Shown here piece by piece: positions 1-14,740 of a stretch of DNA of 64,000 nt. The DNA is from Mesotoga prima MesG1.Ag.4.2 (GTDB taxonomy: Bacteria > Thermotogota > Thermotogae > Petrotogales > Kosmotogaceae). Both the position numbers and the translations under genes were made by a program. Under the pieces are notes generated by a model. The model did no database searches. It had not been told where the DNA came from and saw only the letters and a list, made by a program, of their open reading frames with translations. How positions within the stretch are numbered: the stretch's first letter is position 1; each line of letters starts with the position of its first letter. The stretch lies in NCBI RefSeq assembly GCF_000147715.2, contig NC_017934.1, forward strand, positions 2,108,001 to 2,172,000. The letters are read 5' to 3'.

Positions 1-537
1 GTTAAGAGTCCGCTGGCAAGTTCTGAGCCCAACACTCCTATGAGAAATCTTCTTGGCATTCCTTACACAAGAACAATAGCAAAGAACGGTTGTTCGTACT
101 ATTTTGTTTCGCAGGCAAGGGACTGGATGCCCGACAAGATAGGCGGACTTCTCTGGTTCGGACTTGACAACCCGAGAAAGGGAGCTTGGATTCCTGTTTA
201 TGTAGGGACTCTTCCCAATACGCTCCCGGAGTCTTGGGTGACCTTAAACAGAGATGAGCTTGACAGGAGCTGCTCTTATTGGGCTTTTGATCTTGTCGAT
301 AAGATTTCAAATCAGAGGCTTGGGGCTCTTATGCCTTTGATAGAGGAAGTAAGAGTACCTTTCCAAACGGAGATGTTCGAAGAACAGAGGGATCTCGACG
401 AAATGGCAATGACCCTTTACGAAGATAATCCCGAGCTTGTTCTTAGACTCCTCTCATCCTATACGGCGAGAAAGATGAGAGAAGCAGAAGAACTCTGGTA
501 TGATCTTTCAGAGGTCTTGTTAACTAAGATCGACTAA
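1..537 (+). CDS. C69-family dipeptidase, C-terminal part (cut by window start)
   Basis: The reading frame is open from base 1, so the gene begins outside the window; 178 residues remain. It aligns by eye with the C-terminal third of the two full C69 dipeptidases downstream: the block CSYYFVSQARDWMPDKIGG matches CSYVIVGQARNWMPDAIGG in the next gene, and both continue with a WFG.D.P segment and a charged helical tail. The family (peptidase C69/U34, Ntn hydrolases) removes dipeptides or hydrolyses small amide substrates. The catalytic N-terminal Cys is not visible here. The tail ends about 25 residues earlier than its paralogues and lacks their closing YP.WWLDAVGY motif. The next gene starts 58 bases downstream with its own ribosome binding site, so they may be co-transcribed. 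Confidence 0.85.
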   Translation, partial: VKSPLASSEPNTPMRNLLGIPYTRTIAKNGCSYYFVSQARDWMPDKIGGLLWFGLDNPRKGAWIPVYVGTLPNTLPESWVTLNRDELDRSCSYWAFDLVDKISNQRLGALMPLIEEVRVPFQTEMFEEQRDLDEMAMTLYEDNPELVLRLLSSYTARKMREAEELWYDLSEVLLTKID

Positions 538-595
538 GTAATTGACTTTGGGCCGGTTGATGCCGGTCCATTACTTTGAAAGGGGAGTGAAAGAA

Positions 596-2191
596 ATGAG
601 ACGTGCACTTATTGTTATGCTAGTCCTCATTGTCGGTTATGGAGTAGTAGCAATGGCATGTACTTCGATACTTGTCGGAAAAGACGCATCTGTCGACGGT
701 TCTACTATGGTGACACATACTTGCGACGGCAGTTACGACGCCAGGTTACAGGTGATTCCCGGTGGAGTACATGAAGAAGGCGAGACGGTAAGTATCTACA
801 AGGGTTTGTGCCAGGCGGGTATTCCAGGTAGAACGGTTCAGTATGTTGGAGAGATTCCACAGGTTCCCGAAACTTACACCTACTTCCACACCGGCTACCC
901 GTTTATGAACGAACATCAGGTAATTATCGGAGAAACAACCTGGAGTGGAGAAAGAGCGCTCAGAAACTCCCAGGGTTGGATGACAATCGAGCAGCTCCAG
1001 GTGCTGGGTTTGCAGAGAGGAAAGACAGCCAGAGAAGTCATTCAGATAATGGGTGAACTTGCTGAGAAATATGGTTATGGTGACGGCGGCGAGGGGCTTA
1101 CAGTAATTGATGGAGACGAAGCCTGGTTGTTTGAGATCTGTGGCCCCGGTCCTTTCTGGTCTCCTGGAAGCGAAGAACCCGGAGCAGTATGGGTTGCGCA
1201 GAGAATTCCCGATGACCACGTCCTTGTCCATGCAAATAGATCTAGAATTGGCGAAATCGATCTTGAGAACACAGATTATTTCATGGCATCACCCAATGTA
1301 TACTCAACGGCACAGGAACTCGAGCTGTGGGACGGACAGGAACCATTCCTTTTCTATGCAGCTTACGGGCCAAAGAATGCCTTTTATAACACGAGACGTG
1401 AATGGAGGGTTCTGGACCTTCTTGCCCCGTCTCTAGAGCTCGATCCATGGGCAGAAAGATATCCGTTGTCTGTCAAGCCAGATAAGAAAGTGTCTGCGCA
1501 GGATCTTATGATGATTAAGCGTGACCACTATGAAGGAACCGAATTCGATCTCACTGTTGGCCTTGCCGCAGGTCCTTTTGGTAATCCCAATAGGTATGCT
1601 ACTCCCGCCAGTGCAAGACCGGAAGGCATAAACTATGACGGTTGGGAAAGAGCTATATCTATGTTCAGATGCTCATATGTCATAGTTGGGCAGGCAAGAA
1701 ACTGGATGCCAGATGCGATCGGTGGAGTTGTGTGGTTCGGAGAGGATGCACCTCACTCGACAGTTTATATTCCATTCTACGCAGGTGCGACCAGTGTTCC
1801 CGAGTCGTTCAGTCAAGGAGCAAGGGATTTCTTCGACAGAAGCTCTGCTTGGTGGGCATTCAACCACGTGTCAAACCTAGCCGATCTGAGATATAATGTC
1901 GCAATAGAGATAATCAAAGAGGAATACACGAAGTTTGAGACTGAGTTCCTCGCAAATCAGCCGCTGATCGAAAAGGTTGCGCTGGATCTCTATGCAGAGA
2001 ATCCCGAAGCGGCTATCGATTTCATTACTAATTACAGCAACGGGCTAGCAAACAGAGTTGTCGATAGATGGTGGAAGCTGGCCGATGAGCTAATTTACAC
2101 CCTGAACGATGGGTATGTTGATGGTAAGACTGTGGGTTATCCGACGTGGTGGCTCGAAGCTGTTGGTTATGGAGATACAACTGCAAGATAG
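596..2191 (+). CDS. Secreted C69-family dipeptidase (Ntn hydrolase)
   Basis: A 531-residue exported peptidase. I chose ATG 596 because AGGGGAG at 580-586 sits at proper spacing and the signal peptide starts there; an in-frame TTG at 542 has no such site. Residues 1-21 are a hydrophobic signal peptide ending AMA, directly followed by Cys22 in CTSILVGKDASVDGS, the expected N-terminal nucleophile block of the C69 family. Other family landmarks are NEHQVIIGE near residue 110 and LAAGPFGNPNRY near 330. Family role: hydrolysis of dipeptides or short amides. A strong terminator follows at 2211. It is a tandem paralogue of the genes at 1-537 and 4515-6179. Substrate cannot be told from sequence. Confidence 0.92.
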   Translation: MRRALIVMLVLIVGYGVVAMACTSILVGKDASVDGSTMVTHTCDGSYDARLQVIPGGVHEEGETVSIYKGLCQAGIPGRTVQYVGEIPQVPETYTYFHTGYPFMNEHQVIIGETTWSGERALRNSQGWMTIEQLQVLGLQRGKTAREVIQIMGELAEKYGYGDGGEGLTVIDGDEAWLFEICGPGPFWSPGSEEPGAVWVAQRIPDDHVLVHANRSRIGEIDLENTDYFMASPNVYSTAQELELWDGQEPFLFYAAYGPKNAFYNTRREWRVLDLLAPSLELDPWAERYPLSVKPDKKVSAQDLMMIKRDHYEGTEFDLTVGLAAGPFGNPNRYATPASARPEGINYDGWERAISMFRCSYVIVGQARNWMPDAIGGVVWFGEDAPHSTVYIPFYAGATSVPESFSQGARDFFDRSSAWWAFNHVSNLADLRYNVAIEIIKEEYTKFETEFLANQPLIEKVALDLYAENPEAAIDFITNYSNGLANRVVDRWWKLADELIYTLNDGYVDGKTVGYPTWWLEAVGYGDTTAR

Positions 2192-2210
2192 ATACTGATC
2201 GTTTATTTGT

Positions 2211-2238
2211 AAGGGCGGATATTATTCCGCCCTTTTTT
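2211..2238 (+). terminator. Rho-independent terminator after dipeptidase
   Basis: AAGGGCGGA at 2211-2219 pairs with TCCGCCCTT at 2226-2234 around a TATTAT loop and runs into six T residues. It closes the transcript of the dipeptidase ending at 2191. Confidence 0.9.
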
Positions 2239-2543
2239 AAAGCTATAGATGGAGTGATCCGCGAAAAACATCCAGTGAGTGCAAGTGTGCTCAAATCAGC
2301 TAATTCGCAATGCGTTGCATATTCGAAAGATAAAACCTACTCTTCCTGGATTGATTTTCGAATCCCTGAAAGGGTTTGAGTCTTTCCGAAGCTAACTGGA
2401 GCTTTTTCCTCCTATTTAACACTTGTGTATCGATTGAAGGAAGGAGGCATATTCTCGGGACCCTTTGCTATAATGAATATAGAAAGTTCTCGAACCTTAC
2501 TTATGTTGATTTTTTTAGTATCTACAGAGTTTATTGCTTGGGG
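2239..2543. other. Gene-free leader region
   Basis: About 300 bases without a convincing gene. An open frame runs through it into the downstream gene but lacks a ribosome binding site and protein-like composition. Near 2352-2375 there is a small hairpin built on CCCT-GAA-AGGG. The promoter at 2466-2474 lies at its end. Confidence 0.5.
2466..2474 (+). promoter_or_regulatory. Extended -10 promoter
   Basis: TG-c-TATAAT at 2466-2474 is a perfect extended -10 element. No good -35 lies 17 bases upstream. It would start RNA near 2481, upstream of the exported protein at 2544, which supports that gene's shorter start. Confidence 0.55.
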
Positions 2544-3167
2544 ATGTCACTTTTGAAAATTGCTACGATCTTTTTGATTCTTATTGCGAGTTCAGTTCTT
2601 TGCTCGCTGTCTATCGAACCGCTCCCCGTAATTGAAGATCCAGTGCTTTTTACAGTTTGGGGTGAGAGCATAGAGCTTCAAAACATAAACTATTTCTGTG
2701 ATAGTCTTCAAGTTGCACGTGATTATTCACCGGGTGCAAGTATCGAAGATCTGTGTGAAGGCGCCGGATTCAGGATTGAAGAAGAGCTTTCAGGAGAATC
2801 TTTCCATCCATTTTATGTTTCAGGGACACCTTACCGCACACTTGTGATAATTGCCGGGAGTTCTTTGCCAGAGTCGAGAGCAGACATAGAGAGAATTGAA
2901 GAGCTTGCTTCCTCAGTGAAGTCTTCAAATGGATTAGTGATGGTAATCGATATAGATGTTGAAGGATCGGGAGATGATCCGCTGAAGCAGGAATTTGATC
3001 AAAGATTGGTGCGGTATCTAGATGTTCTGATTGTAGCTGAAAGGCCAGTTGGAGAGTATCTGTCTTTCTTGGAAGGAGAGACTCCTATAGTTGTTGAGTT
3101 ACCCGTGGTTGTAGACCTCGTTTCGATTTTCGAAAGGGACTTTGGGGGCGGCAGATGCTGCGATTGA
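2544..3167 (+). CDS. Exported protein, divergent DUF6305-like paralogue
   Basis: A 207-residue protein with signal peptide (residues 1-22, LIASSVLCS). The mature part has the same order of motifs as the protein at 6296-6931: a PVLFTVWGESIELQNINYFCD block matching PVVITSAGQSAEVETVNYVAD, then a hydrophobic strand TLVIIAGSSLPE matching SLLLVLGASLKG, then a D.E..RIEEL helix and a final IVVELP strand. I recall this family as DUF6305 in RefSeq; function unknown. ATG 2544 is chosen for the signal peptide and the promoter just upstream; no clear Shine-Dalgarno is visible, which is unusual here. It lacks the GGE motif its paralogue carries at the equivalent place. The stop lies 11 bases before the next gene. 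Confidence 0.7.
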   Translation: MSLLKIATIFLILIASSVLCSLSIEPLPVIEDPVLFTVWGESIELQNINYFCDSLQVARDYSPGASIEDLCEGAGFRIEEELSGESFHPFYVSGTPYRTLVIIAGSSLPESRADIERIEELASSVKSSNGLVMVIDIDVEGSGDDPLKQEFDQRLVRYLDVLIVAERPVGEYLSFLEGETPIVVELPVVVDLVSIFERDFGGGRCCD

Positions 3168-3178
3168 TTGGAGGAAAT

Positions 3179-4450
3179 ATGAAGAGAGTTCTCTTGATTA
3201 CGATGATTTTGATTGGCACATTCGCACTATCTCAGATTCATTTGGAAGACTCAGTTACTTTTGGGAGCGAAGGTGACGATGTGGCCAATGATCTAGTAGT
3301 GTTGAGCGACGGAAAATTACTACTGGTAGGGTATACAACTTCGTTTTCTGGAGAGCTTGGAAGTTCTAAAGGAGAAGAGGATTTCCTGATTCTTAAGCTA
3401 GATGAAAGGCTACGCATAATCTGGTCAAAGACATATGGAGGAAGCGGGCGTGACATTGCTGAAGCAGTTCTCGAAACATCAGACGGAGAAATAGTGGTTG
3501 TGGGATTGACAGAGTCGTCAGATGGAGATGTTTCTGAAAGTGATAAGCTTGGCGATTTTTGGGTCGTTAAGCTCTCGCCCACCGGAGAACTCCTTTGGGA
3601 GAAAACCTTCGGGGGAAGCAGCCAGGATCATGCTTATGACGTAGTGGAAAGCCCTTCGGGGAATATTCTGGTCGCCGGCTACACCAGGTCTCCCGACGGG
3701 GACATCGAAGGACACGTATGGGGCGAAGATTTCTGGATAGTTGAGATTTCACCATCCGGTCAGGTATTGAAGCAATGGGTTCTTGATGGAGGAAACAACA
3801 ACGAAGATCTTGCAAGAAAGCTTTTCGTAAATGATATGGGAGATATTTTGATTACGGGATACACCGCATATAAGGATGTAGGGATCAGCTGCAACTACGT
3901 GAATGAACAGGCGGCTCTTGCCATTATTCATGCTGAGGGTATTTCTTCTTATTACGCTTTTGGAGGCATGTATCTTGAGGATGGCTACGACGTGCTTGCT
4001 TCTGAAGAAACAATAGTCATAGTCGGTGAACAGGATGCTGGAATCTCTATGTTTTCGACCGGTCTTGGCGGAAAGGACTTCTATGTAGTCGCGATAGGTG
4101 AAAAGGGGCAGGAATTGTGGTCAGAGAATTACGGTGGAACCTTCACGGATATAGCCCGTGTAGTAAAACCGTTTGGAGCTAGTGATCTTCTAGTTGCCGG
4201 TCATACAACTTCGCAGGATATTGACATTGAAGATCCGCTCGGGATGACAGATGGGTGGATAATCGTTGTTAATGAAAACGGTGAGCTTGTCGAATCGTTG
4301 TCGGTAGGTGGCTCGGCTGACGATTTCATTCTTTCGGGTGTCAATTACGGTGAAAAGTACATTTTATGTGGTTGTTCAACGTCATCTGACGGAGACCTGG
4401 AAAGCAACAAGGGTAAAAAAGACATCTGGTTGATTACGTTAGGAAAATAG
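3179..4450 (+). CDS. Exported seven-repeat beta-propeller protein
   Basis: A 423-residue secreted protein. ATG 3179 follows GGAGG at 3170-3174 and begins a signal peptide (residues 1-17). The mature protein consists of seven repeats of 57-59 residues starting near residues 28, 87, 145, 204, 262, 319 and 377. Each opens with (F/Y)GG....D.A..V, continues with a strand reading LLVGYT or equivalent and a polar S.DGD turn, then a DFW.V.L strand. Seven regular repeats point to a seven-bladed propeller of the SBBP/delta-60 kind, probably for binding or scaffolding. No catalytic motif is seen. It is tightly linked to the upstream exported protein (11-base gap) and followed by a C69 dipeptidase. Confidence 0.85.
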   Translation: MKRVLLITMILIGTFALSQIHLEDSVTFGSEGDDVANDLVVLSDGKLLLVGYTTSFSGELGSSKGEEDFLILKLDERLRIIWSKTYGGSGRDIAEAVLETSDGEIVVVGLTESSDGDVSESDKLGDFWVVKLSPTGELLWEKTFGGSSQDHAYDVVESPSGNILVAGYTRSPDGDIEGHVWGEDFWIVEISPSGQVLKQWVLDGGNNNEDLARKLFVNDMGDILITGYTAYKDVGISCNYVNEQAALAIIHAEGISSYYAFGGMYLEDGYDVLASEETIVIVGEQDAGISMFSTGLGGKDFYVVAIGEKGQELWSENYGGTFTDIARVVKPFGASDLLVAGHTTSQDIDIEDPLGMTDGWIIVVNENGELVESLSVGGSADDFILSGVNYGEKYILCGCSTSSDGDLESNKGKKDIWLITLGK

Positions 4451-4452
4451 AT

Positions 4453-4487
4453 AAGGTCTAGCGACCTTAAACTGGGGTTAATCCCCA
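4453..4487 (+). other. Two small tandem hairpins between genes
   Basis: AAGGTC-TAGC-GACCTT (4453-4468) is followed at once by TGGGG-TTAAT-CCCCA (4473-4487). Neither is followed by a T run, so they look like intercistronic RNA stems (processing or stability) and not a terminator. Confidence 0.45.
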
Positions 4488-4514
4488 ATAAAATCAAGTT
4501 GGGAGGGGTTTCAA

Positions 4515-6179
4515 TTGCGTAAGATCCTGTTGGTCCTGATTGTGGCTGCAGCAATAGTTAGCATCGGCTTTGCATGTACCACGATCATCGTAACTAAGGG
4601 TGCGTCTGTTGACGGTTCGGTAATGACGAGTCATTCAGCTGACTGCGGCCTCTGTGATTTCAGGTACGTCTATGTTCCACCCGCAGACTATGAAGCGGGA
4701 GCAAAGAGAGCAGTTTATCCATTCGTTGAGCCATATCCACGTTATGTCGGTGCGGATATGGGTCCGACCTACAACGATCCGGACCTTCCGGCTACTGAGC
4801 CTCTGGGTTACATCGATCAGGTCGAGCACACATATGGCTACTTTGATGCAGTTTATGGTGTAATCAACGAGCACCAGCTTGCCATTGGCGAATGTACTTG
4901 TTCCGCAAAGGTCTATGCTCAGCCAAAGGCCGGAGAATGCATATTTGACGTAGCCGCTCTTTCCAGAGTTGCTATGGAGAGATGTACAACCGCAAGAGAA
5001 GCCGTTGAACTGATGGGCGCACTTGCCGTTGAGTACGGTTACTACGGTTGGGGAGAAACACTCACAGTAACAGACCCTAATGAAGCATGGGTCTTCGAAA
5101 TCTGTGCAACGCCTGACAAGAAGAGCGCACTTTGGGCGGCAAAGAAGGTTCCCGATGGAACGGTCTTTGTTGAGTCAAACCTATTCAGGATTAGAGAACT
5201 CGATCCTGAAAGCCCTGACAATATGTTCTCCCCGAATCTTATCGAAGTTGCAACGGAGGCCGGCTGGTACGATCCCAGTACCGGTCCTATCGACTGGATG
5301 GCTACTGTTAGTACAGGCGAGTACTCTATGCCTTACTATAGTCTGAGAAGAACGTGGAGAGTTTTCGACAGGGTCTCCCCTTCTCTTGGACTTTCTCCAT
5401 GGGTAGAAGACAGTTTTACAAAGGACTACCCGTTCTCTATAGTGCCTGACAAGAAACTGTCGGTAGCAGATGTTATTGATCTTTTCAGAGACCACTACGA
5501 AGGAACGGAATTCGATCTTACCGAAGGACTTGCCGCAGGACCTTTCGGCAATCCCAATCGCTATGCAGGTTCAAGCAAACTAATAAAGGGGAGCTGGGAA
5601 AGAGCTCTTTCTATCTTCAGATGTGAATACGTATTTGTGTCTCAGGTCAGAGATTGGCTTCCGGATCCTGTCGGCGGCGTAGTATGGTGGGGCGCGGCTG
5701 CTCCTCACGAGACAATTCTAGTGCCCATGTACTGTGGAATAACGGACGTTCCATATGCTTATGACAGTGGTAGCCTTCAGGAATTCGACTACGATGTCGC
5801 ATCATGGGCATTCAACTTCATGGGTAACTGGGCAGAGTTGAAGTGGAGCTACATGTACCCGGAGATTCAGGAACTGCAGAAGAAGATCGAAGGAAAGCTC
5901 TTTGCAGTACAGCCAGCTATCGAGGCAGCTGCTGCACAGCTTTATGAGACAGATCCAGAACTGTGTAAGGAATTCCTTACAGATTACGTTGCTGACGTGA
6001 CTGACAGAGTGATGGCAGAAGTGTGGGATTTCAACGAATATCTTATTACGAAGTACAGAGACGGATACATAAACATTCCGAACGTTGGTTCGTCTGCTGG
6101 ATACCCCGACTGGTGGCTTGATGCAGTAGGATACGACGAAGGCCATATTTTCGGCGAAGACGGCTACAAAGCTAAGTAA
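4515..6179 (+). CDS. Secreted C69-family dipeptidase (Ntn hydrolase)
   Basis: A 554-residue exported peptidase starting at TTG 4515, six bases after GGGAGGGG at 4501-4508. Residues 1-20 form a signal peptide ending GFA. Cys21 begins CTTIIVTKGASVDGS, the nucleophile block of C69 dipeptidases. Further shared blocks are NEHQLAIGECTC near 115, DHYEGTEFDLTEGLAAGPFGNPNRY near 325-350 and the C-terminal YPDWWLDAVGY. It is clearly paralogous to the gene at 596-2191 and, unlike it, has many extra cysteines in the mature part. Expected activity is hydrolysis of dipeptides or small amides outside the membrane. Terminator at 6187. Confidence 0.92.
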   Translation: MRKILLVLIVAAAIVSIGFACTTIIVTKGASVDGSVMTSHSADCGLCDFRYVYVPPADYEAGAKRAVYPFVEPYPRYVGADMGPTYNDPDLPATEPLGYIDQVEHTYGYFDAVYGVINEHQLAIGECTCSAKVYAQPKAGECIFDVAALSRVAMERCTTAREAVELMGALAVEYGYYGWGETLTVTDPNEAWVFEICATPDKKSALWAAKKVPDGTVFVESNLFRIRELDPESPDNMFSPNLIEVATEAGWYDPSTGPIDWMATVSTGEYSMPYYSLRRTWRVFDRVSPSLGLSPWVEDSFTKDYPFSIVPDKKLSVADVIDLFRDHYEGTEFDLTEGLAAGPFGNPNRYAGSSKLIKGSWERALSIFRCEYVFVSQVRDWLPDPVGGVVWWGAAAPHETILVPMYCGITDVPYAYDSGSLQEFDYDVASWAFNFMGNWAELKWSYMYPEIQELQKKIEGKLFAVQPAIEAAAAQLYETDPELCKEFLTDYVADVTDRVMAEVWDFNEYLITKYRDGYINIPNVGSSAGYPDWWLDAVGYDEGHIFGEDGYKAK

Positions 6180-6186
6180 TTGACTT

Positions 6187-6222
6187 ACCCGCCCCCAAAG
6201 TGGGGCGGGTTTTGCTCTTTTT
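6187..6222 (+). terminator. Rho-independent terminator
   Basis: ACCCGCCCC (6187-6195) pairs with GGGGCGGGT (6202-6210), then TTTTGCTCTTTTTT. It ends the dipeptidase transcript at 6179. Confidence 0.9.
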
Positions 6223-6295
6223 TGTATTTCAAACCTTGTAGACGATTCTTGATTCATATATAGTGTTTAAGATTTCGAATGAGGAGGTTACTTAC

Positions 6296-6931
6296 ATGAG
6301 AAGATTTCTGTTAGTTCTGATTGTAGTTTCTCTTGTCAGTGTTTTTGCGTTTGCCGAACCCGAGGTAAAACTCGGTTTGCCTGTCGTAATCACTTCTGCC
6401 GGTCAGAGCGCAGAGGTTGAAACAGTCAACTATGTTGCCGATGAAGTCGGCCTGAAGTACGACTACTGTGACGTTCTTTCCAAGGATGAGCTTGCGGCTG
6501 GAGTTGGACTCGGTGGAGCCAAGTCAGCAATAGGAAAGCACGTCACGACGCTTTCTCCCGATCCCGAAGGTACTAAGTTCCAGTCTCTGTTACTCGTTCT
6601 TGGCGCCAGCCTTAAAGGCATGGGCGCTTCCGGTCTCTCAGTTGACACGGAAGTTGACAGACTCAAGGACCTTATAGAATATGCGAAGGCAAACAAAATA
6701 AAGATTGTTGCAGTTGCTATTGGAGGAGAGATTCAAAGAGGTCTTCCAGGAAGTCCGATCGAAGTTATTATCGACACCGTCGTTCCCCATGCTGACGTAT
6801 TCATAGTTACAAAGGATTCAAATGGCGATGGGAAGTTCACGAAGGCGGCGGAAGCCAGAAACGTTCCAATAGTAGAGATCGATTCTGCATTTGATCTTCT
6901 CGATACTTTTACACAGGTATTTGGCTTGTAG
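6296..6931 (+). CDS. Exported DUF6305-like protein
   Basis: A 211-residue secreted protein. ATG 6296 follows GAGGAGGT at 6281-6288; a GTG at 6263 in frame is less likely. Signal peptide is residues 1-20 (FAFAEPE). The mature part alternates strands and helices: PVVITSAGQSAEVETVNY, a VTTLSPDPEGTKF turn, LLLVLGASLKGMG, a helix D.EVDRLKDLIEYAKANKI, then VAVAIGGEIQRG and a final DVFIVTKDSNGDGKFTKAA. The order suggests a small Rossmann-like domain. I recall it as DUF6305, unknown function. It stands directly before the permease at 6997, separated by a stable hairpin, so a role as extracytoplasmic partner of that transporter is possible but only inferred. Confidence 0.75.
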   Translation: MRRFLLVLIVVSLVSVFAFAEPEVKLGLPVVITSAGQSAEVETVNYVADEVGLKYDYCDVLSKDELAAGVGLGGAKSAIGKHVTTLSPDPEGTKFQSLLLVLGASLKGMGASGLSVDTEVDRLKDLIEYAKANKIKIVAVAIGGEIQRGLPGSPIEVIIDTVVPHADVFIVTKDSNGDGKFTKAAEARNVPIVEIDSAFDLLDTFTQVFGL

Positions 6932-6941
6932 TTTCTTGGTG

Positions 6942-6973
6942 GCCGGCGCAATAGTTTTATCTACCGCGCCGGC
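6942..6973 (+). other. Intercistronic hairpin before permease gene
   Basis: GCCGGCGC (6942-6949) and GCGCCGGC (6966-6973) form an 8-base GC stem with a 16-base loop. No T tract follows, and the ribosome binding site of the permease gene starts eight bases later. It probably stabilises or splits the mRNA of the exported protein. Confidence 0.55.
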
Positions 6974-6996
6974 TCCAATTAAAGGGGGTAATCAGA

Positions 6997-8301
6997 TTGT
7001 CAGCTGATGCAATATACATGCAAACGATCATAGCAGGAATAGTTATGGTTGGAGCCTATGCCGTCGGGAAGTTTCTGAAATTTTCAACCGAACTATGTAT
7101 GTTTGTCGCAGTAATCGGTGGTGCCATTGCCGGGGGAGCGGGATTTGATACTTTCAGGCATATTGCCGAAGGATCGGTAACCTACCTCGACATTGGACTA
7201 ATTTTCGTGTTTGCAACGATATTTATGAACATCATCAAGGAATCGGGTGGAACGAATTACATAGTAAGAAAGATAATAGGTGCCTTCCACAACAAGAGAA
7301 TACTGATGCTGATACTTCTCATGCTTGTGATTCTTGTTCCCGGTGCCCTAACAGGTGCCGGAAGCATCTCGGTCCTGGTTGTTGGAGGAACGGTTGCGGC
7401 CGCTCTCAACGCAATGGGACTTTCGAAGGTGAGAATCTCGGCGTTGATTTTCATTGTCGCCGGTTTGAGTGCCGCTGCTCCGCCAGTTAACATCTGGGCG
7501 ATGATGACCTGTGCCGGAACGGCCATTCCTTACGTTGGATTTACGATGCCTCTTCTCATACCGGTCCTGATTCTTGGGCTTTTCACCGTGCTGTTTTTTG
7601 GACGCGGGGCAGGAAATATCGACAAAGAAAAGGCTCTCAAAGAGATTCCCGATCCAAAAGGACTCTCCGGATGGAGTGTTGGAGTACCTTTCCTTGTCTT
7701 GATCTTCCTGCTTGGAGCTCCTAGAATCTGGCCATTTGATTTCCCGGTCCTCGGATTGCCTCTGGTATTTGCAATCTGTGCTTTGGTAGCATGGCTTATG
7801 AACTTCAAGAGAGTTGATATATTGAAGGTCAGCAGAGAAACGGTCGCTCAATTGACGCCGCTCATAGCGACTACCGCTGTCGTCGGTATGCTGATACAGG
7901 TGATGAGTTTTAACGGTGTCAAAGGCTTGATTTCCATGTGGATTGTGACTGCTCCTCTCGCGATCGTCTGGATTCTCCTTCCTTTCATAATACCAATATC
8001 GGAAGGTCTCCTGACGTATGGTGGTGCTACGGTAATTGGCATACCTCTTATATGGATGTTGAACTCGAACGGGATCAACCCGGTAATCGTTCTGGCAGGA
8101 CTGAGTTTACTGTGGCCTCTTGGGGATGGATTGCCCCCGACTGCGCTTATTGGGCGCTTGACGGTTAGCACAGTAGGTTACAAAGGCTCATATGGCTCAT
8201 TCTTGAAAGAATGCGTGGTGCCCTGGATAGCCATAACTGTCGTTGCAATGATACTGGTTATCTTTGCAAATAAATTCAACTTCCTGATGATGGTAGGTTG
8301 A
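6997..8301 (+). CDS. Ion-transporter/TRAP-large-subunit-like membrane permease
   Basis: A 434-residue polytopic membrane protein with about 12 hydrophobic segments. TTG 6997 is eight bases after AAAGGGGG at 6981-6988. Two pseudo-repeats each carry a re-entrant-like motif: GALTGAGSISVLVVGG with AAPPVNIWAMMTCAGT in the first half, and EGLLTYGGATVIGIP with WPLGDGLPPTALIGR in the second. That layout is typical of the ion-transporter superfamily and most like DctM subunits of TRAP carboxylate transporters (GTG..A and PP motifs). No DctP or DctQ gene is present; instead an exported DUF6305-like gene precedes and a 50-codon membrane gene follows. Substrate is unknown; products of the neighbouring hydrolases (amino acids or acylated amino acids) are an inference. 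Confidence 0.8.
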   Translation: MSADAIYMQTIIAGIVMVGAYAVGKFLKFSTELCMFVAVIGGAIAGGAGFDTFRHIAEGSVTYLDIGLIFVFATIFMNIIKESGGTNYIVRKIIGAFHNKRILMLILLMLVILVPGALTGAGSISVLVVGGTVAAALNAMGLSKVRISALIFIVAGLSAAAPPVNIWAMMTCAGTAIPYVGFTMPLLIPVLILGLFTVLFFGRGAGNIDKEKALKEIPDPKGLSGWSVGVPFLVLIFLLGAPRIWPFDFPVLGLPLVFAICALVAWLMNFKRVDILKVSRETVAQLTPLIATTAVVGMLIQVMSFNGVKGLISMWIVTAPLAIVWILLPFIIPISEGLLTYGGATVIGIPLIWMLNSNGINPVIVLAGLSLLWPLGDGLPPTALIGRLTVSTVGYKGSYGSFLKECVVPWIAITVVAMILVIFANKFNFLMMVG

Positions 8302-8316
8302 GGAGGAGGTGTCGTC

Positions 8317-8469
8317 ATGACTTTGATAATGTTTCTGTATTATGTGATGACAGCCTATGTGGTAGGCATGCTTATCTGGAACTTCATAAAGACGAAGGAT
8401 ATAAACAGCGAAATCTTATATGCACTGGCTCTCTTGCCCCTCATTCTCAGATTGCTTATAATGAGGTAG
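8317..8469 (+). CDS. Tiny two-helix membrane protein (50 aa)
   Basis: A 50-codon gene with a perfect AGGAGGAGGT ribosome binding site at 8301-8310, overlapping the stop region of the permease gene. The product has a first hydrophobic helix at residues 2-22 (begins MTLIMFLYYVMTAYVV), a short polar loop with KTKDINSE, and a second hydrophobic helix at 33-49 ending in Arg. It ends 10 bases before the next gene, so translation of permease, small protein and deacylase is coupled. It does not resemble a family I know. Its position suggests a small subunit or stabiliser of the permease, in the place a DctQ subunit would hold, though it is far shorter than DctQ. Confidence 0.75.
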   Translation: MTLIMFLYYVMTAYVVGMLIWNFIKTKDINSEILYALALLPLILRLLIMR

Positions 8470-8479
8470 GAGGGATATT

Positions 8480-9628
8480 ATGATGAGAAAACTATTGATA
8501 CTGGTTGTTCTGACACTTATTGTCTTGGCGGGCGGAATTCCTTTGTACATACAGAGGAGTTACAAGGAAGAAGTAGTCGCCGGGCCGAGCGTGACAGACG
8601 TCTTCAAGCTAAGCAAGTATTTCGACGGAATCAAAGGAACCATTGCCGATACCGACGTCTTTGAGCTTAAAGGAGCAGAAGAGGGTGGAAAGACGCTGAT
8701 AATCGCGGGAACCCATGCAAATGAACCCTCTGCTGCCTTACTCGCCTATTTCTTCATAGAAAATCTGGAAGTCGAAAAGGGAACAATTTACGTAATCCCC
8801 CATTTCAACCGAAGCGGTTCTCTCGGGCCGCAGCCCGGTGGCGGTTTCCCGCTCTATTACTTCGTTGATACTCCCTGGGGTGAAAAGAAATTCAGAATGG
8901 GCGATCGAGGCTTCCAGGCACTCGACCAGTGGCCCGATCCAGATGTATATGTTCACTATCCAGACGGCCAGTTGTTGTCCTATATCGATGCAAGAAACAC
9001 AAACAGATCTTGGCCGGGAAGACCCGATGGCTACCTTGCGGAAAAGGTTTCCTTTGCAGCAATGGAGATGATCCGTAATGAAGGAATTGACGTGGTTATC
9101 GATCTTCATGAGGCAGAGGCAATGTATCCAGTAACAAACTGTATAGTTGCTCCCGAGAAGTCAATGCCCTACGCGATAGGAGCTGCGTTCTATGTAAAGG
9201 GAAGGGAGAAATTCGAAAACCATGTGGAATCTTCACCGGCTGGTTACAGGGGTCTTTCTCATAGAGAGATCGGAGATTGGTCAGACGCATACCCCTTCTT
9301 ACTGGAATCTCCTGGTGTGCACTTAGATCAGATTACGGCAGCGAAAACTCCTGAGCTGATCATAGACGGAATAGACCCGTTTGTACTGAAGGCCGGCGAA
9401 AAGGGACTGCTTTTCGTTCCATATGACGAAAACGGATTCTCTATGGACAGAAGAGTTGGGCAGCATTCTTCTGTCATACAGGAGATTTTGTCTCAGTGGA
9501 CGAAGAAGAATCCAGATCGCGGCTTCAAAGTCTCGGCTCCGAAACATGCGGACATTGTTGAAAATGGTCTCGGGTTTTATTTCAAAGATCCTTCTGAGGC
9601 GGATGAAGATAAGGTCTTTCTCCAGTAG
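8480..9628 (+). CDS. Membrane-anchored M14/AstE-AspA-like deacylase or carboxypeptidase
   Basis: A 382-residue protein with one N-terminal membrane anchor (residues 3-24) and a zinc-hydrolase domain outside. The metal motif AGTHANEPS (near residues 76-84) matches the H..E zinc ligands of the M14 succinylglutamate desuccinylase/aspartoacylase branch, and VIDLHEAEAMYP near 210 matches the third ligand block D.HE. Known members cleave acyl-amino acids or C-terminal amino acids. ATG occurs at both 8480 and 8483 after AGGAGGG. It is the last gene of the permease operon and is followed by a terminator, so it probably makes or trims the substrate of that permease (inference). Confidence 0.8.
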   Translation: MMRKLLILVVLTLIVLAGGIPLYIQRSYKEEVVAGPSVTDVFKLSKYFDGIKGTIADTDVFELKGAEEGGKTLIIAGTHANEPSAALLAYFFIENLEVEKGTIYVIPHFNRSGSLGPQPGGGFPLYYFVDTPWGEKKFRMGDRGFQALDQWPDPDVYVHYPDGQLLSYIDARNTNRSWPGRPDGYLAEKVSFAAMEMIRNEGIDVVIDLHEAEAMYPVTNCIVAPEKSMPYAIGAAFYVKGREKFENHVESSPAGYRGLSHREIGDWSDAYPFLLESPGVHLDQITAAKTPELIIDGIDPFVLKAGEKGLLFVPYDENGFSMDRRVGQHSSVIQEILSQWTKKNPDRGFKVSAPKHADIVENGLGFYFKDPSEADEDKVFLQ

Positions 9629-9648
9629 GGTTTTGTCTAGGCTGAATG

Positions 9649-9683
9649 AGTGCATGCGTTATCGAGGACGCATGCACTTTTTT
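9649..9683. terminator. Bidirectional rho-independent terminator
   Basis: AGTGCATGCGT (9649-9659) pairs perfectly with ACGCATGCACT (9668-9678), followed by six T. It lies between convergent genes (deacylase plus, HAD minus) and can serve the plus strand well; on the minus strand the T run is weak. Confidence 0.9.
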
Positions 9684-9705
9684 AGTTTTCGTCACGGTTC
9701 CGTTA

Positions 9706-10332
9706 TTAATCTTCTTGAATAATCCGCCCCAGCTGCAGCAGATCGTCGACTATATAGTCGACGTCTATCGAAGGTTTCGACCCATCTTGCGAAAAGAAGC
9801 AGGTTTTTGTTCCCGCATCCCTTGCGGCCATCACATCGAGATCTCTGTCGCCAATGGAGAGGGTTGATTCCGGTTTTAATCTGTGTCTTCTAATCGTGCT
9901 TATGAAAGCTTCTGGATCGGGCTTTCTTTTGAATCCGCTTTCTTTTGTGACAATTTCACTGAACAAGGAGGTCATCTCGAAGTAATCTAGCAGTTTGAAG
10001 GCTGTCCTTCTAGCTCGATGAGTAATTATTAGATTCACTCCACCATCTCTCTTAATTCTCGAGCATACCTCACGGGCACCACTGAATGGAGGCTGTTCGA
10101 CTGGATCCAATTCTTCCTCCATTCTTTGGAAGTCTTTGTAGAAAGCGTAATCAACTCCACGATCTAGATAAAAATCTACGGCCTTTCCCAGCGTTTCTTT
10201 CATCAGCGAGAGTATCTCATCTTCAGAAGCACCGTATCCGTGAATTGCCAGAGACTGCTTGAATAGTCTTACCATGGCGGGATAGGTGTTAAACAAGGAA
10301 CCATCGAAATCCCATATTAAATTTTCAATCAT
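9706..10332 (-). CDS. HAD-superfamily hydrolase (phosphatase-like)
   Basis: A 208-residue HAD hydrolase. ATG at 10332 is taken because WDFDG then starts at residue 7 as in its paralogue; GTG 10341 would add three residues. Motif I is D8-F-D10 (WDFDGSLFNTYP), motif II is ITHRAR near 105, motif III the lysine in KRKPDPEAF near 145 and motif IV GDRDLDVMAARDAG near 172. All catalytic residues are present. The cap region and length resemble phosphoglycolate-phosphatase-type enzymes. Its start overlaps the stop of the upstream HAD gene, with which it shares about 40% of positions by eye: a tandem duplication. Confidence 0.88.
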   Translation of the reverse strand: MIENLIWDFDGSLFNTYPAMVRLFKQSLAIHGYGASEDEILSLMKETLGKAVDFYLDRGVDYAFYKDFQRMEEELDPVEQPPFSGAREVCSRIKRDGGVNLIITHRARRTAFKLLDYFEMTSLFSEIVTKESGFKRKPDPEAFISTIRRHRLKPESTLSIGDRDLDVMAARDAGTKTCFFSQDGSKPSIDVDYIVDDLLQLGRIIQED

Positions 10333-10984
10333 CGCCTTCACAGCCGCTGAATCTGTTGCAAACCTGGAGGACAGAAGGAACCTGACTTAAAGAGGTTAAG
10401 ACGAAGTCCGCGCTGGTCTTTACGAAATCCTTATCTGGATTGAAAAGGCACGTTGCTATTCCCGCTCTCTTTCCAGCCTCTATATCGATCTCTCTGTCAC
10501 CTATCGTCAAGACTCTCTCTCTCTCAAGGCCGTATTTGTCAATTATGTACATTATTGCTTGAGGATCAGGCTTTCTCGCAAAGCCGCTATCCGCAGATAC
10601 GATTTCGGAGAAGAGATCGAGCATATTGTAGTAATTGAGAAGTTTGGTCATGGAGTAGTTGCTTCTATGACTGAAAAGGAAATTGCTGCCGCCGTTCCTG
10701 TTGATCTTCACACAAATCTCCTTCGCGTTATCAAATGGCGGCTGTTTCTCGGGTTGCAGAAGGTTTTCTATGCGGTAGAAATCCTCAAGGAAGCCATTCT
10801 TCAGCTTATATTTGTTGACAAAATAGCTTGCAGCTTTCGATGTCGACTCCTTGAGCTTTTCAAGAATTTCATCTATTGAGGCTTTGACATCATACTTCTC
10901 GAGAACTTCCTGAAATACCTTTGCTGCAGCTGGGTAAGTATCGAAAAGTGTACCTCCGAAATCCCAAATCACGTAATCATACAT
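10325..10984 (-). CDS. HAD-superfamily protein lacking the second motif-I aspartate
   Basis: A 219-residue paralogue of the next gene. Motif I reads WDFGGTLFDTYP: the nucleophile D8 is kept but the general acid/base D10 is Gly. Motif II (LFSHRSN), the motif III lysine in ARKPDPQAI and motif IV GDREIDIEAGKRAG are all intact. Loss of only D+2 usually cripples phosphomonoesterase turnover or shifts chemistry in this superfamily, so it may be a slow phosphatase, a binding protein or a partner of the intact copy. Its last eight bases overlap the second HAD gene, so expression is coupled. Confidence 0.85.
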   Translation of the reverse strand: MYDYVIWDFGGTLFDTYPAAAKVFQEVLEKYDVKASIDEILEKLKESTSKAASYFVNKYKLKNGFLEDFYRIENLLQPEKQPPFDNAKEICVKINRNGGSNFLFSHRSNYSMTKLLNYYNMLDLFSEIVSADSGFARKPDPQAIMYIIDKYGLERERVLTIGDREIDIEAGKRAGIATCLFNPDKDFVKTSADFVLTSLSQVPSVLQVCNRFSGCEGDD

Positions 10985-11052
10985 AGTACTTCCCCTTTCT
11001 TGGATCTAAATCAATAATAAACGCTTTTGGGGATTTCGTCCTGTCGGGTATC

Positions 11053-11556
11053 TTAAGAATCCTGGGTTTCTTCAAGATATCTTACCCTTGATGCAGCGAT
11101 TATTTCCAACGTTTCTTCCCTTCTTACCCAGCCTTCGATACCCGTTTTCTTCTTTTCGAGATCCTTGTATACGGAGAAGAAATGCTCTATCTCTTTCAGC
11201 AGATGAGGTGGAACATCATCGAGAGTCTCAATGTAATTCCAGACCGGATCATGAATCGGAACACAAAGGACCTTTTCATCGGGTCCCTTCTCGTCCCACA
11301 TCTTGAATGCGCCTATGGGCTTCGCTTCTATTAGACAGCCAGGAAAGGTTGGCTCCCACAGCAAAACCATCGCATCGAGCGGGTCCTCATCCTCGGCAAG
11401 CGTATTGAGGATGAAGCCATAATCCATTGGATAATGGACCGCAGAAAACAGCGTCCTGTCGAATCTTATTCTTTGAAACTTCTTGTCGTATTCGTACTTG
11501 TTCCTGCTCCCTTTCGGAATCTCTATCATTATGTCCAGTACTATTTCTTCCTGCAA
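11053..11556 (-). CDS. ppa: Inorganic pyrophosphatase (family I)
   Basis: A 167-residue soluble family I pyrophosphatase, hydrolysing diphosphate to phosphate. Diagnostic blocks: IEIPKGSRNKYEYD near residue 10-23, YPMDYGFI near 45, the signature AEDEDPLDAMVL (the D..D.LD metal-binding motif), and the DEK.L.VP segment. TTG 11556 is favoured because GGAGGTGA at 11562-11569 lies five bases upstream; a GTG at 11571 would overlap that site. The gene is monocistronic with a likely extended -10 (TGGCATAAT, minus strand, about 11574-11583). Confidence 0.93.
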   Translation of the reverse strand: MQEEIVLDIMIEIPKGSRNKYEYDKKFQRIRFDRTLFSAVHYPMDYGFILNTLAEDEDPLDAMVLLWEPTFPGCLIEAKPIGAFKMWDEKGPDEKVLCVPIHDPVWNYIETLDDVPPHLLKEIEHFFSVYKDLEKKKTGIEGWVRREETLEIIAASRVRYLEETQDS

Positions 11557-11575
11557 AGCTGTCACCTCCACAACA

Positions 11576-11584
11576 ATTATGCCA
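11576..11584 (-). promoter_or_regulatory. Possible extended -10 for pyrophosphatase gene
   Basis: On the minus strand TGG-CATAAT ends just before the ribosome binding site of ppa, giving an almost leaderless mRNA. No good -35 is seen. Confidence 0.35.
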
Positions 11585-11614
11585 GAAAGACCACAGTCTC
11601 ATGATTATCATAAA

Positions 11615-11640
11615 AGAAGAACCCCTTATGGGGTTCTTCT
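11615..11640 (-). terminator. Terminator after the dockerin-protease operon
   Basis: AGAAGAACCCC (11615-11625) and GGGGTTCTTCT (11630-11640) form a perfect 11-base stem with a TTAT tetraloop. On the minus strand the stem runs into TTTTA. It ends the two-gene operon 14482-11662. Confidence 0.85.
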
Positions 11641-11661
11641 AGACCGATTTCAAAAACAGTC

Positions 11662-13128
11662 TTACCTGTTGTTAAATAAGAATACCCAGGCAGCAGCGTC
11701 TTCGCCGTTGATCTTCCCGTCCTTGGGGAAGGAAATGTCGCAAGCGGTTATGTCGTCTGCTTCCGTAGAACCGATCTTTTCAACTAGATATTCGAAATCC
11801 TTCGTATCAACAACGCCATCGCTATTGACGTCAAGATCGTCACCTTCGTGATGAGCGAGATCATCGAATATTGGCAGGTACATCTCTCTTTTTTCAATTT
11901 CCCAGAAGCCCAGCTGCCCACTTTCATATTGTTCTTCACTGATAGCCGGAATCACGAAGTAACCACCATCTCCCCAGTCATAGGCCCAGGAGTTCTTTAT
12001 TATCCAGAACGTGGTGGTTGTGAAAATCGGTGAGGCCGCCTGTGTTGGATCGACATATGTGTAGCTTTCAATCTCTTCGTCCAGAATAGGAGTTGCATCT
12101 GGATTTGTCTTGCCAGCTAGAATAATATCGTCGAGATCTGTGGCACTTGCCCATCCGACTAGAGTAACTGCATGTCCGCCCGTACTATAATCTCCTTCTA
12201 CTGGAGAATATATACCCTTTGAATAGTAGTTGAAACTATACGGAACTGAGAAAGAGACGGCAAGAGATCCATAATCTGAAAGCGCTGTCTTGATCATGTT
12301 CAAATAGTCTTCATAGCTGTACCCTAGCTCAGCTGCCGATGTGGATGGAGGGATCATAACGGTTCGGGACGACTTCAACAGTGGAGCATCGTAGGCAGAT
12401 GGAGGCAGAGGAATCTCCTCCCTAGCATCAATATAGACTTCTGAGAATGGAGCATACTGTTCTTCCATCATCCCATACCTTATGAGATTGTACATTGCAA
12501 AGTAACTGTTTCCACCCTCAAGACTGTTCTTATCCTGAACATAACTGTCTGGTGAAAAACTGTAGATATCCCAGTCTATGTTGTGATAAGTTCCCCATCG
12601 TTCCGAATAATCGAAGGTGTTATCAACGTTGCCGTTCATTCCGAAAGACTGCACCGCCAAAGCGCTCTCAAAAGAGCCCACAGTGGCAAAAGACCAGCAG
12701 CTTCCATGAATGAACTGATCTCTTATAGGTTCGAGTCTTACAAAACTGCTCTCGGCTACTACGCGAGGTTCCAGAAGCACGAAAGTCGACATCATAAGAT
12801 CATCAGTAGTTGTCATTCCCTGTATAGAGAATTCATCCATCTCTTCTATGTATGCCAACCTCAAATACTCGATGAATCTCTCACGCACTTCATCTGGAAG
12901 GTCTATGTAGCTATTGAGTTTCTCGAAAATCACTTCTACGTCACCAATGTTAGCTGTCTCCAGCTTTGCAACGAAGCTCTCTTCTAGATCTGCTTTCCAG
13001 CTAAGATTCATGCTTGATATCGCCGAGTTGATTTCCGCCTCTATGGATGCTACCTGAGTTGCAACGTTAGCAGTTGCAAACGTGTATAAGAACAAAACCG
13101 AAAGTAATACTACCAATATTTTCTTCAT
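11662..13128 (-). CDS. Secreted papain-like cysteine protease with C-terminal dockerin-like domain
   Basis: A 488-residue exported protease. ATG 13128 is six bases from GGGGGG at 13135-13140 and starts a signal peptide (1-20, FATANVA). Residues 25-125 form a helical propeptide-like region. The C1A catalytic core follows: oxyanion Gln138 and Cys144 in DQFIHGSCWSFA, His319 in GGHAVTLVGW and Asn379 in WIIKNSWAYDWGDGGYF. Residues 430-488 look like a type I dockerin: calcium loop 1 is D433-V-N-S-D437-G-V-V-D441-T-K-D444, and loop 2 ends KDGKINGEDA (470-479) preceded by ACD with a two-residue insertion. It lies 13 bases behind a lipoprotein with a cohesin-like domain, suggesting a tethered surface protease (inference). 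Confidence 0.88.
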   Translation of the reverse strand: MKKILVVLLSVLFLYTFATANVATQVASIEAEINSAISSMNLSWKADLEESFVAKLETANIGDVEVIFEKLNSYIDLPDEVRERFIEYLRLAYIEEMDEFSIQGMTTTDDLMMSTFVLLEPRVVAESSFVRLEPIRDQFIHGSCWSFATVGSFESALAVQSFGMNGNVDNTFDYSERWGTYHNIDWDIYSFSPDSYVQDKNSLEGGNSYFAMYNLIRYGMMEEQYAPFSEVYIDAREEIPLPPSAYDAPLLKSSRTVMIPPSTSAAELGYSYEDYLNMIKTALSDYGSLAVSFSVPYSFNYYSKGIYSPVEGDYSTGGHAVTLVGWASATDLDDIILAGKTNPDATPILDEEIESYTYVDPTQAASPIFTTTTFWIIKNSWAYDWGDGGYFVIPAISEEQYESGQLGFWEIEKREMYLPIFDDLAHHEGDDLDVNSDGVVDTKDFEYLVEKIGSTEADDITACDISFPKDGKINGEDAAAWVFLFNNR

Positions 13129-13141
13129 GGTCATCCCCCCT

Positions 13142-14482
13142 TTACTCCAAGAAGACAATCGGTTCGTGATCAACTATGAACCCGTCAACCGAACCATTGT
13201 CTACATCTCTGAAAGCGGGATTTGGTAAATCGGGATAAGTGCCGTACGTATCCCAGTAACCTTCATACGCCAGTCCCACGGCAATGAGTTCACCTTCGAA
13301 ATCTTCAGGAACCGAGAAAGTGAGAGTTGCGAAGACATCGTCGGCCGCTTCGGCTTCATCTACTCCGTTTAGGAAGGCTTTGTAAAGAGTAACGGCCTCA
13401 TCACTACTCTTGAATGTTCCAACATCCTTCAGACCTGCCATGAAGTTTCCAAATTCGACGCCTTCGAGAACCAAACCCTCGCTATTCCACAGAGAGAGTT
13501 GAACATATCTGACATCATACAGATCGGCAAAACTCGCAACATTTTCTGTCAAGACACTTACTGTAAACGAATCACCAGGTCCTATATCACCGTCGGGAGT
13601 AGAAAGGCTTATTATTGGTTTTTCATCTGAGTCATACCTCTCTCTCAACGCGAAGGCTTTGTAAGCTTCTCCGTAGTCGTTAAGCGTGTTTCCGAAAACG
13701 TGAGCTTCTACCCATCTCGCGTAAACTGTGTTAAGATCAAATCCCACTTCAGCAAACTTGTAGAACAAGACATATCCGCTGTAAGGACCTTCAACACCGG
13801 CATAGTATGCCCTTATCGATTTCTCGCCATACTCGAATCCATAAGGCACCCATAGCGTATCATAATCTATCAAATAACCAGGTAGATACACATATGTCTG
13901 AAGATCGGGCCTGTCATTTGGTATTTCTTCCCATGTGTCATACATGCCATCATCATCGGTGTCGAGCAGGTTGAGCCGCTTCCTTACCGTTACCTCTTCG
14001 GCAGGTAGAATTTCCTCTGAAGCAGTCTTGTAAAACCTGATACCGAAAGCCTCATCTTCGATATACTGGAAATAGTCGCTGTAGTCAAAGTACATTAATC
14101 CAGCTCCAGACTGGAAGAGCTCTCTCTTAAGATTCGTGGCTTTGAAAGAAATCGTCTCCTTCGATTGAGCACCCATCGAATCGGTTGCTACAACCTCTGC
14201 GACGTACTTCCCCTCTTCGTCGAGAGCGTACATCGCTTCACCGGTGTCGACTACAGAAAGAACTTCAGCCCCATTTCTGTAGAGCTTGAACTCAGAAGTT
14301 ACTTCTGTGTCATCAAAGTCAGTTATTTCCCACTCGAAAGTGACAAGCGTCATCGGAGCAATTTCCTGCCCTTCCGAAACGGAGCCTGTCAACGATATTA
14401 CCGGTGGATTGTTGATCTTAAAGCAGCCGGAGACAAATAGCATGAATCCCAGCAGAAGAGTAATCAACAACGTTTTCTTCAT
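13142..14482 (-). CDS. Lipoprotein with Ig/PKD-like and cohesin-like domains
   Basis: A 446-residue lipoprotein: lipobox FVSG-Cys20 after a hydrophobic signal. Residues 27-117 look like an Ig/PKD module (PPVISLTGSVSEGQEI, TFEWEITDFDD, GKYVAEVVATDSMGA). Residues 118-287 are a middle region with one calcium-loop-like stretch DTDDDGMYD. Residues 288-446 resemble a cohesin: PIISLSTPDGDIGPGDSF, then FTVSVLTENV, LYDVRYVQLSL, LEGVEFGNFM, and DDVFATLTFSVPEDF, in the order and spacing of cohesin strands, then a C-terminal VDNGSVDGF. RBS AGGGGG lies seven bases before ATG 14482. The following gene encodes a dockerin-bearing protease, which supports the cohesin call. Domain assignment needs a profile search. 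Confidence 0.75.
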   Translation of the reverse strand: MKKTLLITLLLGFMLFVSGCFKINNPPVISLTGSVSEGQEIAPMTLVTFEWEITDFDDTEVTSEFKLYRNGAEVLSVVDTGEAMYALDEEGKYVAEVVATDSMGAQSKETISFKATNLKRELFQSGAGLMYFDYSDYFQYIEDEAFGIRFYKTASEEILPAEEVTVRKRLNLLDTDDDGMYDTWEEIPNDRPDLQTYVYLPGYLIDYDTLWVPYGFEYGEKSIRAYYAGVEGPYSGYVLFYKFAEVGFDLNTVYARWVEAHVFGNTLNDYGEAYKAFALRERYDSDEKPIISLSTPDGDIGPGDSFTVSVLTENVASFADLYDVRYVQLSLWNSEGLVLEGVEFGNFMAGLKDVGTFKSSDEAVTLYKAFLNGVDEAEAADDVFATLTFSVPEDFEGELIAVGLAYEGYWDTYGTYPDLPNPAFRDVDNGSVDGFIVDHEPIVFLE

Positions 14483-14521
14483 TCTCTTACCCCCTTTTCA
14501 AAGATTTCGCGTTCAAAGACA

Positions 14522-14550
14522 ATTATACATTCACAGGCGCCGATTCTGAA
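14522..14550 (-). promoter_or_regulatory. Sigma-70 type promoter for cohesin-like/dockerin-like operon
   Basis: On the minus strand TTCAGA (14550-14545), 17-base spacer, TATAAT (14527-14522). Transcription would start near 14515, about 33 bases before the lipoprotein ATG. Confidence 0.65.
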
Positions 14551-14740
14551 AACCCCCGTTTCTGAACAATTCTGCTTTCATGGCTTGAAAACATAATTTT
14601 TCGCTTTGTCTAGATCCTACCTGACACCGTCGGAGAATCTCTGAAAAACTCCGATAAACGACTCGTCAACATGCTTTTCAATGAAGAGATTTGCTTCACT
14701 TTCAACCGGGTTCTTCATCCCAAATTCAGTAACACTCCCA

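Follow-up and report, generated by a model that had tools for sequence, protein, structure and literature searches.

A conserved DUF6305, permease and hydrolase gene set of Mesotoga prima and its association with poly-gamma-glutamate genes

The first 9,628 positions of a 64,000-nucleotide stretch of the Mesotoga prima MesG1.Ag.4.2 genome (NC_017934.1, positions 2,108,001 to 2,172,000; this whole stretch is called the window) carry a conserved module made up of a DUF6305 exported protein, a DctM-like permease, a 50-residue two-helix membrane protein, an anchored M14-type hydrolase and one or more C69 hydrolases. The module is a gene set kept together in several bacterial phyla, and it occurs mostly in genomes that also encode TIGR04332, found with the poly-gamma-glutamate (PGA) genes PgsB and PgsC. 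We put at about even the chance that its extracytoplasmic N-terminal nucleophile (Ntn) and zinc hydrolases cut a gamma-linked glutamyl polymer or peptide, and that the permease, with the small protein and DUF6305, imports the products.

Results

Conservation of the gene set across phyla

Relatives of the permease were collected by scanning genome contigs with the four permeases of the M. prima genome, and the best 80 of 329 confirmed loci were kept, so the retained relatives favour close C69-type kin. They come from genomes titled Aminicenantes/Acidobacteriota, Atribacterota, Bipolaricaulota/Acetothermia, KSB1, Deferribacteres, Bacillota/Clostridia, Spirochaetes and Thermotogota-type. Among the first 39 well-flanked loci, DUF6305 and M14 genes were each present at 39/39 and C69 genes at 35/39; these genes do co-occur across phyla, the outcome on which an earlier reading of this DNA (the original prediction) had staked its proposal of a single system. 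An enlarged set, to which later loci were added, comprises 49 permeases flanked by 6 kb or more in each direction. There, M14 is present at 49/49 loci, DUF6305 and the small protein at 48/49 each, and an Ntn hydrolase (C69 and/or GGT) at 45/49, as C69 alone at 35, GGT alone at 8 and both at 2. The sole locus without DUF6305 is the broken copy L007 (L and G numbers are our own, for loci and genomes), and the sole miss of the small protein is L090, where that protein is seen by eye.

Many loci hold two or three C69 genes. In the spirochaete module of L123 (8145-15359) the permease is followed by three M14 genes and a GGT gene, a hydrolase set longer than those of other loci. Viewed from the DUF6305 side, a permease lies within 6 kb of 39 of the 52 DUF6305 genes in the 103 genomes of the window phylum (E <= 1e-20). 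Some of the 13 permease-less genes sit near contig ends, and L088 is a true orphan; a similar orphan is found in a same-genus genome (L091).

Association with poly-gamma-glutamate genes

Clustering of neighbouring genes placed Mur-ligase-like genes, identified as PgsB by NCBIfam, together with PgsC and TIGR04332, beside the module. At the KSB1 locus, PgsB, PgsC, TIGR04332, C69, DUF6305, permease, small open reading frame (ORF) and M14 all lie on one strand. Pgs genes also adjoin the module, not all three being in view everywhere, in Thermotogota (L090, L093, L094, L095), Acidobacteriota/Aminicenantes (L026, L074, L084, L101), Bipolaricaulota/Acetothermia (L077, L079), Bacillota/Clostridia-titled genomes (L098, L102 and L103, from the genomes of L024, L062 and L080) and Spirochaetota (L099, L119-L123).

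The association extends to whole genomes. Across three phyla, TIGR04332 is encoded by 58 of the 62 genomes with a strong DUF6305 match and by 11 of the 780 without one. In the window phylum (103 genomes) DUF6305 occurs in 18 genomes, TIGR04332 in 17 and both in 16; in the phylum of an Aminicenantes genome (347 genomes) the corresponding counts are 29, 28 and 27, and in that of a Spirochaetes genome (392 genomes) 15, 24 and 15, with Fisher p-values of 1e-15, 9e-37 and 3e-21, respectively, all of which ignore shared ancestry and are thereby inflated. The surveyed phyla take their names here from the record titles of relatives or of survey centres. Restriction to strong matches reduced the Acidobacteriota genomes with DUF6305 from 31 at E <= 0.001 to 29 (G262 and G325 dropped) and the Spirochaetota genomes from 19 at the same threshold to 15 (G518, G543, G568 and G710 dropped). 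Better evidence for co-occurrence than these p-values is the genus pattern in the window phylum, where DUF6305 and TIGR04332 mark an identical set of 7 genera out of 38, belonging to five family codes. The two genes are at most 15 kb apart in 27 of the 58 genomes, and among module genomes taken by hand TIGR04332 was present in 11 of 12, one as a fragment below the cut-off.

In M. prima itself, PgsC, PgsB and TIGR04332 stand in a row (L092, genome C1:2887000-2906000; 8224-12523). PgsB scores 244.2 bits (cut-off 222.7) and TIGR04332 369.3 bits (cut-off 100); PgsC, at 95.0 bits, lies just under its NCBIfam cut-off of 96.45 and reaches 121 bits with PF14102 CapC (cut-off 27). An OPT-family oligopeptide transporter gene (PF03169) precedes this row on the same strand. 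The genome has two matches to PF09587 (PgsA/CapA), at C1:672525 and C1:1417930, both unlinked to PgsB-PgsC. PF09587 was dropped as a marker of the system, its matches being widespread and mostly weak, with strong ones only in G000, G027 and G031 among 17 TIGR04332 genomes.

The dependence looks one-sided, the module accompanying the polymer genes and not vice versa, since nine spirochaete genomes (L110-L118) keep PgsC-TIGR04332 without the module; PgsB is present in eight of them, and the ninth ends at a contig edge. In several of these genomes PgsB is immediately preceded by a gene of one recurring kind, about 490 codons long and by eye of the CoA-binding type.

Gene content of the window locus

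The genes of the locus all lie on the plus strand, in the reading frames that the original prediction described:

1..537, plus strand: C69 hydrolase, 3' part only (PF03577, E 7.6e-6); gene start at genome C1:2106966, outside the window
542..2191, plus strand: C69-family Ntn hydrolase with signal peptide (PF03577, E 5.1e-73); likely start ~596; Cys at the AMA/CTS junction
2376..3167, plus strand: divergent DUF6305-like exported protein (PF19823, E 7.8e-6, 26 bits, cut-off 25); likely start ~2544
3155..4450, plus strand: exported beta-propeller with delta-60-type repeats (TIGR02608, E 5.9e-13, below cut-off)
4515..6179, plus strand: C69-family Ntn hydrolase with signal peptide (PF03577, E 7.4e-56); Cys at the GFA/CTT junction
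6263..6931, plus strand: DUF6305 exported single alpha/beta domain (PF19823, E 1.8e-43); likely start ~6296
6997..8301, plus strand: DctM-like permease, IT-superfamily fold (CitMHS, E 0.0016, below cut-off; structure model)
8317..8469, plus strand: two-helix membrane protein of 50 residues (similar ORF in relatives; purifying selection)
8480..9628, plus strand: membrane-anchored M14-type zinc hydrolase, AstE/AspA-like (PF24827, E 2.5e-7, 30.9 bits, cut-off 25)

The family matches agree with the original prediction in giving three C69 dipeptidase-family genes, the first as a 3' part only, two DUF6305-like exported proteins and an anchored M14-like enzyme above the Pfam cut-off. Its account of the gene composition stands as well; the extent that it gave the locus stands only in part, as the window edge cuts a unit, the C69 gene at 1-537 belongs to an upstream module and the propeller lies outside the conserved set. 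Because this C69 gene closes a complete upstream module, the window locus is the second of two tandem modules. The upstream one (L005) consists of DUF6305 (11591-12202), permease (12265-13557), small ORF (13576-13749 as called), M14 (13761-14927) and C69 (14966-16537). The propeller is absent from the gene clusters common to at least four loci; both this gene and the weak DUF6305-like one therefore seem to have been added locally. Immediately past the module, on the minus strand (window 9706-10984), lie two neighbouring phosphatase-like genes, HAD-type by eye, whose similarity suggests a tandem duplication.

A permease search of the genome found four copies. The third (L006) is complete, with DUF6305, permease, small ORF, M14 and two C69 genes. 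The fourth (L007, C1:1680000-1698000; 8393-13076) retains the permease and a shortened M14 gene that has lost its start, and has no DUF6305; it adjoins two transposase-like genes, seen by eye. In a close relative (L089) this copy is intact and of the GGT type.

Two lineages of the module

In a tree of 54 permeases, built by a quick method and to be read with a warning about long branches, a branch with support 100 separates all 8 GGT-partnered permeases and the broken L007 from all 39 C69-partnered ones and 6 without an Ntn gene. Repeated swapping of C69 and GGT can be rejected, since one change suffices on this tree. Each hydrolase type thus comes with its own group of permease sequences, a pattern that uptake of the hydrolase's products by the permease would predict. 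Adjacency to Pgs genes is found on both sides of the GGT/C69 branch, and linkage to them amounts to six changes on the same tree.

The permease and its candidate partners

The permease model (pLDDT 94.9) matches TRAP M subunits in Foldseek (SiaQM and IseQM chains, TMq 0.67-0.70) and ArsB (TMq 0.69), as well as INDY-type and YdaH/MtrF chains, a fold of the IT superfamily. The DctM-like label of the original prediction holds for the fold, and the GGT-type permease of L089 passes PF06808 DctM (45.9 bits, cut-off 23.8); the window permease itself, however, gave no match to PF06808 in a profile search, and its profile matched no PDB chain sequence. No DctQ gene adjoins it, the sole DctQ of the genome lying far off at C1:2558977, one for four such permeases, and a DctP search that covered only the nine proteins of the locus gave no match. 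The locus is thus without the classical TRAP partners, as originally proposed. Judged from its model, the permease looks like a DctM-type protein, yet it fails the test of TRAP partners.

DUF6305 is modelled as a single alpha/beta domain (pLDDT 92.1), and its conserved motifs contain Gly, Lys and Arg. At Foldseek E <= 0.001 the model matches nothing in the PDB, and its best VIA hits (Z 8.8) are assorted Rossmann-type chains that share a common alpha/beta arrangement; no known fold, that of DctP included, was assigned to it. Five matches of the DUF6305 profile to PDB chains were discarded as chance-like, and homology between DUF6305 and TIGR04332 was rejected at an hhalign probability of 0.5 (percent).

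All 77 permease-to-M14 intervals examined contain a hydrophobic ORF some 50 residues long, with a C-terminal pattern like P..LR.LR.K; one of the 77 fell below the hydropathy cut-off because its called start is too far upstream. When the window copy is set against a 90% identical relative, 23 of the base differences fall in synonymous codons and 6 in codons that change the residue. By this substitution pattern the small ORF is a gene under purifying selection, which upholds the original call of a 50-residue membrane protein. Tyr8 and Arg45 are invariant in the small-protein alignment (A7), and the protein is also present in the GGT clade. A profile search found no DctQ match for it.

The hydrolases

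Among C69 ORFs of at least 420 residues (15 shorter fragments were dropped), the motif Cys stands behind an N-terminal hydrophobic segment in 97 of 104. The spacing is of two kinds, with either 3-9 or 13-27 residues between segment and Cys; the window genes are of the 3-9-residue kind by eye, and in the protein of 542-2191 the Cys directly follows the segment. Signal-peptide cleavage could therefore expose the predicted nucleophile directly in the window enzymes. Two C69 scores, 221.6 and 157.8 bits, remain under the NCBIfam dipeptidase equivalog cut-off of 250 while passing the Pfam family cut-off, and the enzyme of 4515-6179 matches solved relatives, the dipeptidase 5iau and others, at E 2.4e-18. 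An N-terminal hydrophobic segment is likewise present in 89 of 93 DUF6305 ORFs and 100 of 103 M14 ORFs. In M14, His79, Glu82, His210 and Glu276 (HxxE...H plus a distal Glu) are invariant in 32/32 sequences; we take them to be zinc ligands and the catalytic Glu, by analogy with aspartoacylase and carboxypeptidase. The nearest solved M14 relatives include N-acetyl-diaminobutyrate deacetylase.

Discussion

The reading that we favour, by no more than an even chance, is cleavage followed by uptake. Two extracytoplasmic enzymes, an Ntn hydrolase (C69 in the window, GGT in the sister clade) and the anchored M14 zinc hydrolase, would degrade a gamma-linked glutamyl polymer or peptides and release monomers or oligomers of very few units. 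Exported DUF6305 would hold or deliver the acidic product, and the DctM-like permease, possibly in a physical complex with the 50-residue two-helix protein as partner, would carry it inward. Both enzyme types have published precedents in PGA metabolism: GGT takes single subunits off PGA, the CapD of the cap operon is a GGT-family Ntn hydrolase, and PghP is a carboxypeptidase-like zinc PGA hydrolase (PMC4497714; PMC6506827, a paper on PghL).

Several observations weigh against this reading. PgsB-PgsC-TIGR04332 adjoin the module at only 14 of the 49 loci, and in M. prima the Pgs genes lie about 0.78 Mb from it, in one copy for four permeases. TIGR04332 is missing from 4 of the 62 strong-DUF6305 genomes, DUF6305 from 9 of the 24 spirochaetes with TIGR04332, and the inflation of the Fisher p-values applies here too. 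The orphan DUF6305 gene of M. prima (L088, C1:2733000-2750000; 8365-9093) has neither permease nor M14 nearby. PGA synthesis by the PgsB-PgsC-TIGR04332 operons is a family label, so these are putative synthesis genes. For C69 enzymes and for M14 enzymes of the AstE/AspA type other substrates are on record, namely dipeptides and N-acyl amino acids, and we know of no activity for any member of the module.

Those other substrates underlie a serious though less probable rival, the system that the original prediction suggested, in which C69 cuts dipeptides, M14 deacylates and the permease imports amino acids in general scavenging, the PGA genes being frequent companions. Homology of C69 to solved dipeptidases, the AstE/AspA matches of M14 with a deacetylase among its solved kin, the two or three C69 genes at many loci and the many modules not beside PgsB, which are the majority, would all suit it. 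It sits poorly with the concentration of the module in TIGR04332 genomes (58/62 against 11/780), the replacement of C69 by GGT in the sister clade and the PgsB operons adjoining the module in several phyla.

A part in polymer maturation or export, with the hydrolases trimming or releasing the PgsB-PgsC chain and the permease and small protein moving an intermediate or counter-ion outward, is unlikely. The module does occur in the synthase operon neighbourhood; in the cap operon the GGT-family CapD processes PGA (PMC4497714), and PgsE/CapE stimulates PGA production (PMC3815933). The nine spirochaete genomes with PgsC-TIGR04332 and no module imply, however, that it is dispensable for synthesis there, and the module's own small protein is a two-helix membrane protein. 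The substrates known for secondary transporters with this fold are small anions rather than polymers. Least probable of all is that common descent and a similar way of life, as anaerobic peptide fermenters, account for the association and that the genes have no tie in function: positives may cluster in two of the three phyla, where genus membership is not given, but the patchy presence in the window phylum (the same 7/38 genera, five family codes), the linkage within 15 kb in 27/58 genomes and the six changes of Pgs linkage on the permease tree argue against it.

A bolder form of the cleavage-and-uptake reading is offered tentatively, as possible but doubtful. The DctM-fold permease, the 50-residue subunit and a DUF6305 receptor would form a tripartite secondary transporter of a new class, built together with anchored zinc and Ntn hydrolases as the recovery arm of a cycle in which anaerobes of several phyla synthesise, cut and reimport a gamma-linked polymer; the GGT and C69 lineages would probably serve two polymers.

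In the open-licence literature searched, 'DUF6305' is absent, in line with the original prediction, which knew of no described system of this composition. Searches there combining C69, desuccinylase and permease, Aminicenantes and C69, Mesotoga and polyglutamate, or PgsB and TRAP returned no description of the module, and the phrase 'poly-gamma-glutamate system protein' was used only for Francisella CapA. The link to PGA genes, the four copies and the GGT sister clade are new results beyond that prediction. The association gives a first functional context to DUF6305, an easily missed 50-residue membrane protein and TIGR04332 together, and lets a formerly uninterpreted cluster be framed as a hypothesis whose substrates are named and can be tested. 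If it is true, many mostly uncultured bacteria make and re-use PGA-type polymers via a dedicated transporter whose composition was not found in the open-licence literature.

Comparison with known systems

The module resembles TRAP transporters (DctP-DctQ-DctM) in its permease fold and in the genes beside the permease, one for an exported protein and one for a small partner in the membrane. It differs in having no DctQ or DctP at the site, a two-helix partner of about 50 residues, a one-domain DUF6305 and hydrolases as constant members. With the secreted C69 dipeptidases of the 5iau family, its C69 proteins share the family fold and the nucleophile Cys motif; unlike them, they are linked to a permease and M14, and many relatives have 13-27 residues before the Cys. 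Similarly, M14 carries the zinc-site pattern HxxE...H and distal Glu of AstE/AspA-type deacylases and carboxypeptidase-like PGA hydrolases, whereas its N-terminal membrane anchor sets it apart.

Compared with pgsBCA/capBCA(DE), the loci adjoining Pgs genes have TIGR04332 in place of PgsA (PF09587) and add permease, small protein, DUF6305, M14 and C69. Common to both are PgsB and PgsC, joined in one clade by an Ntn hydrolase of the GGT family, and PGA hydrolases of both the zinc and the Ntn type are known. Francisella capBCA offers a further likeness: in PMC5362203, its CapA is called a hypothetical poly-gamma-glutamate system protein, which is the product name of TIGR04332.

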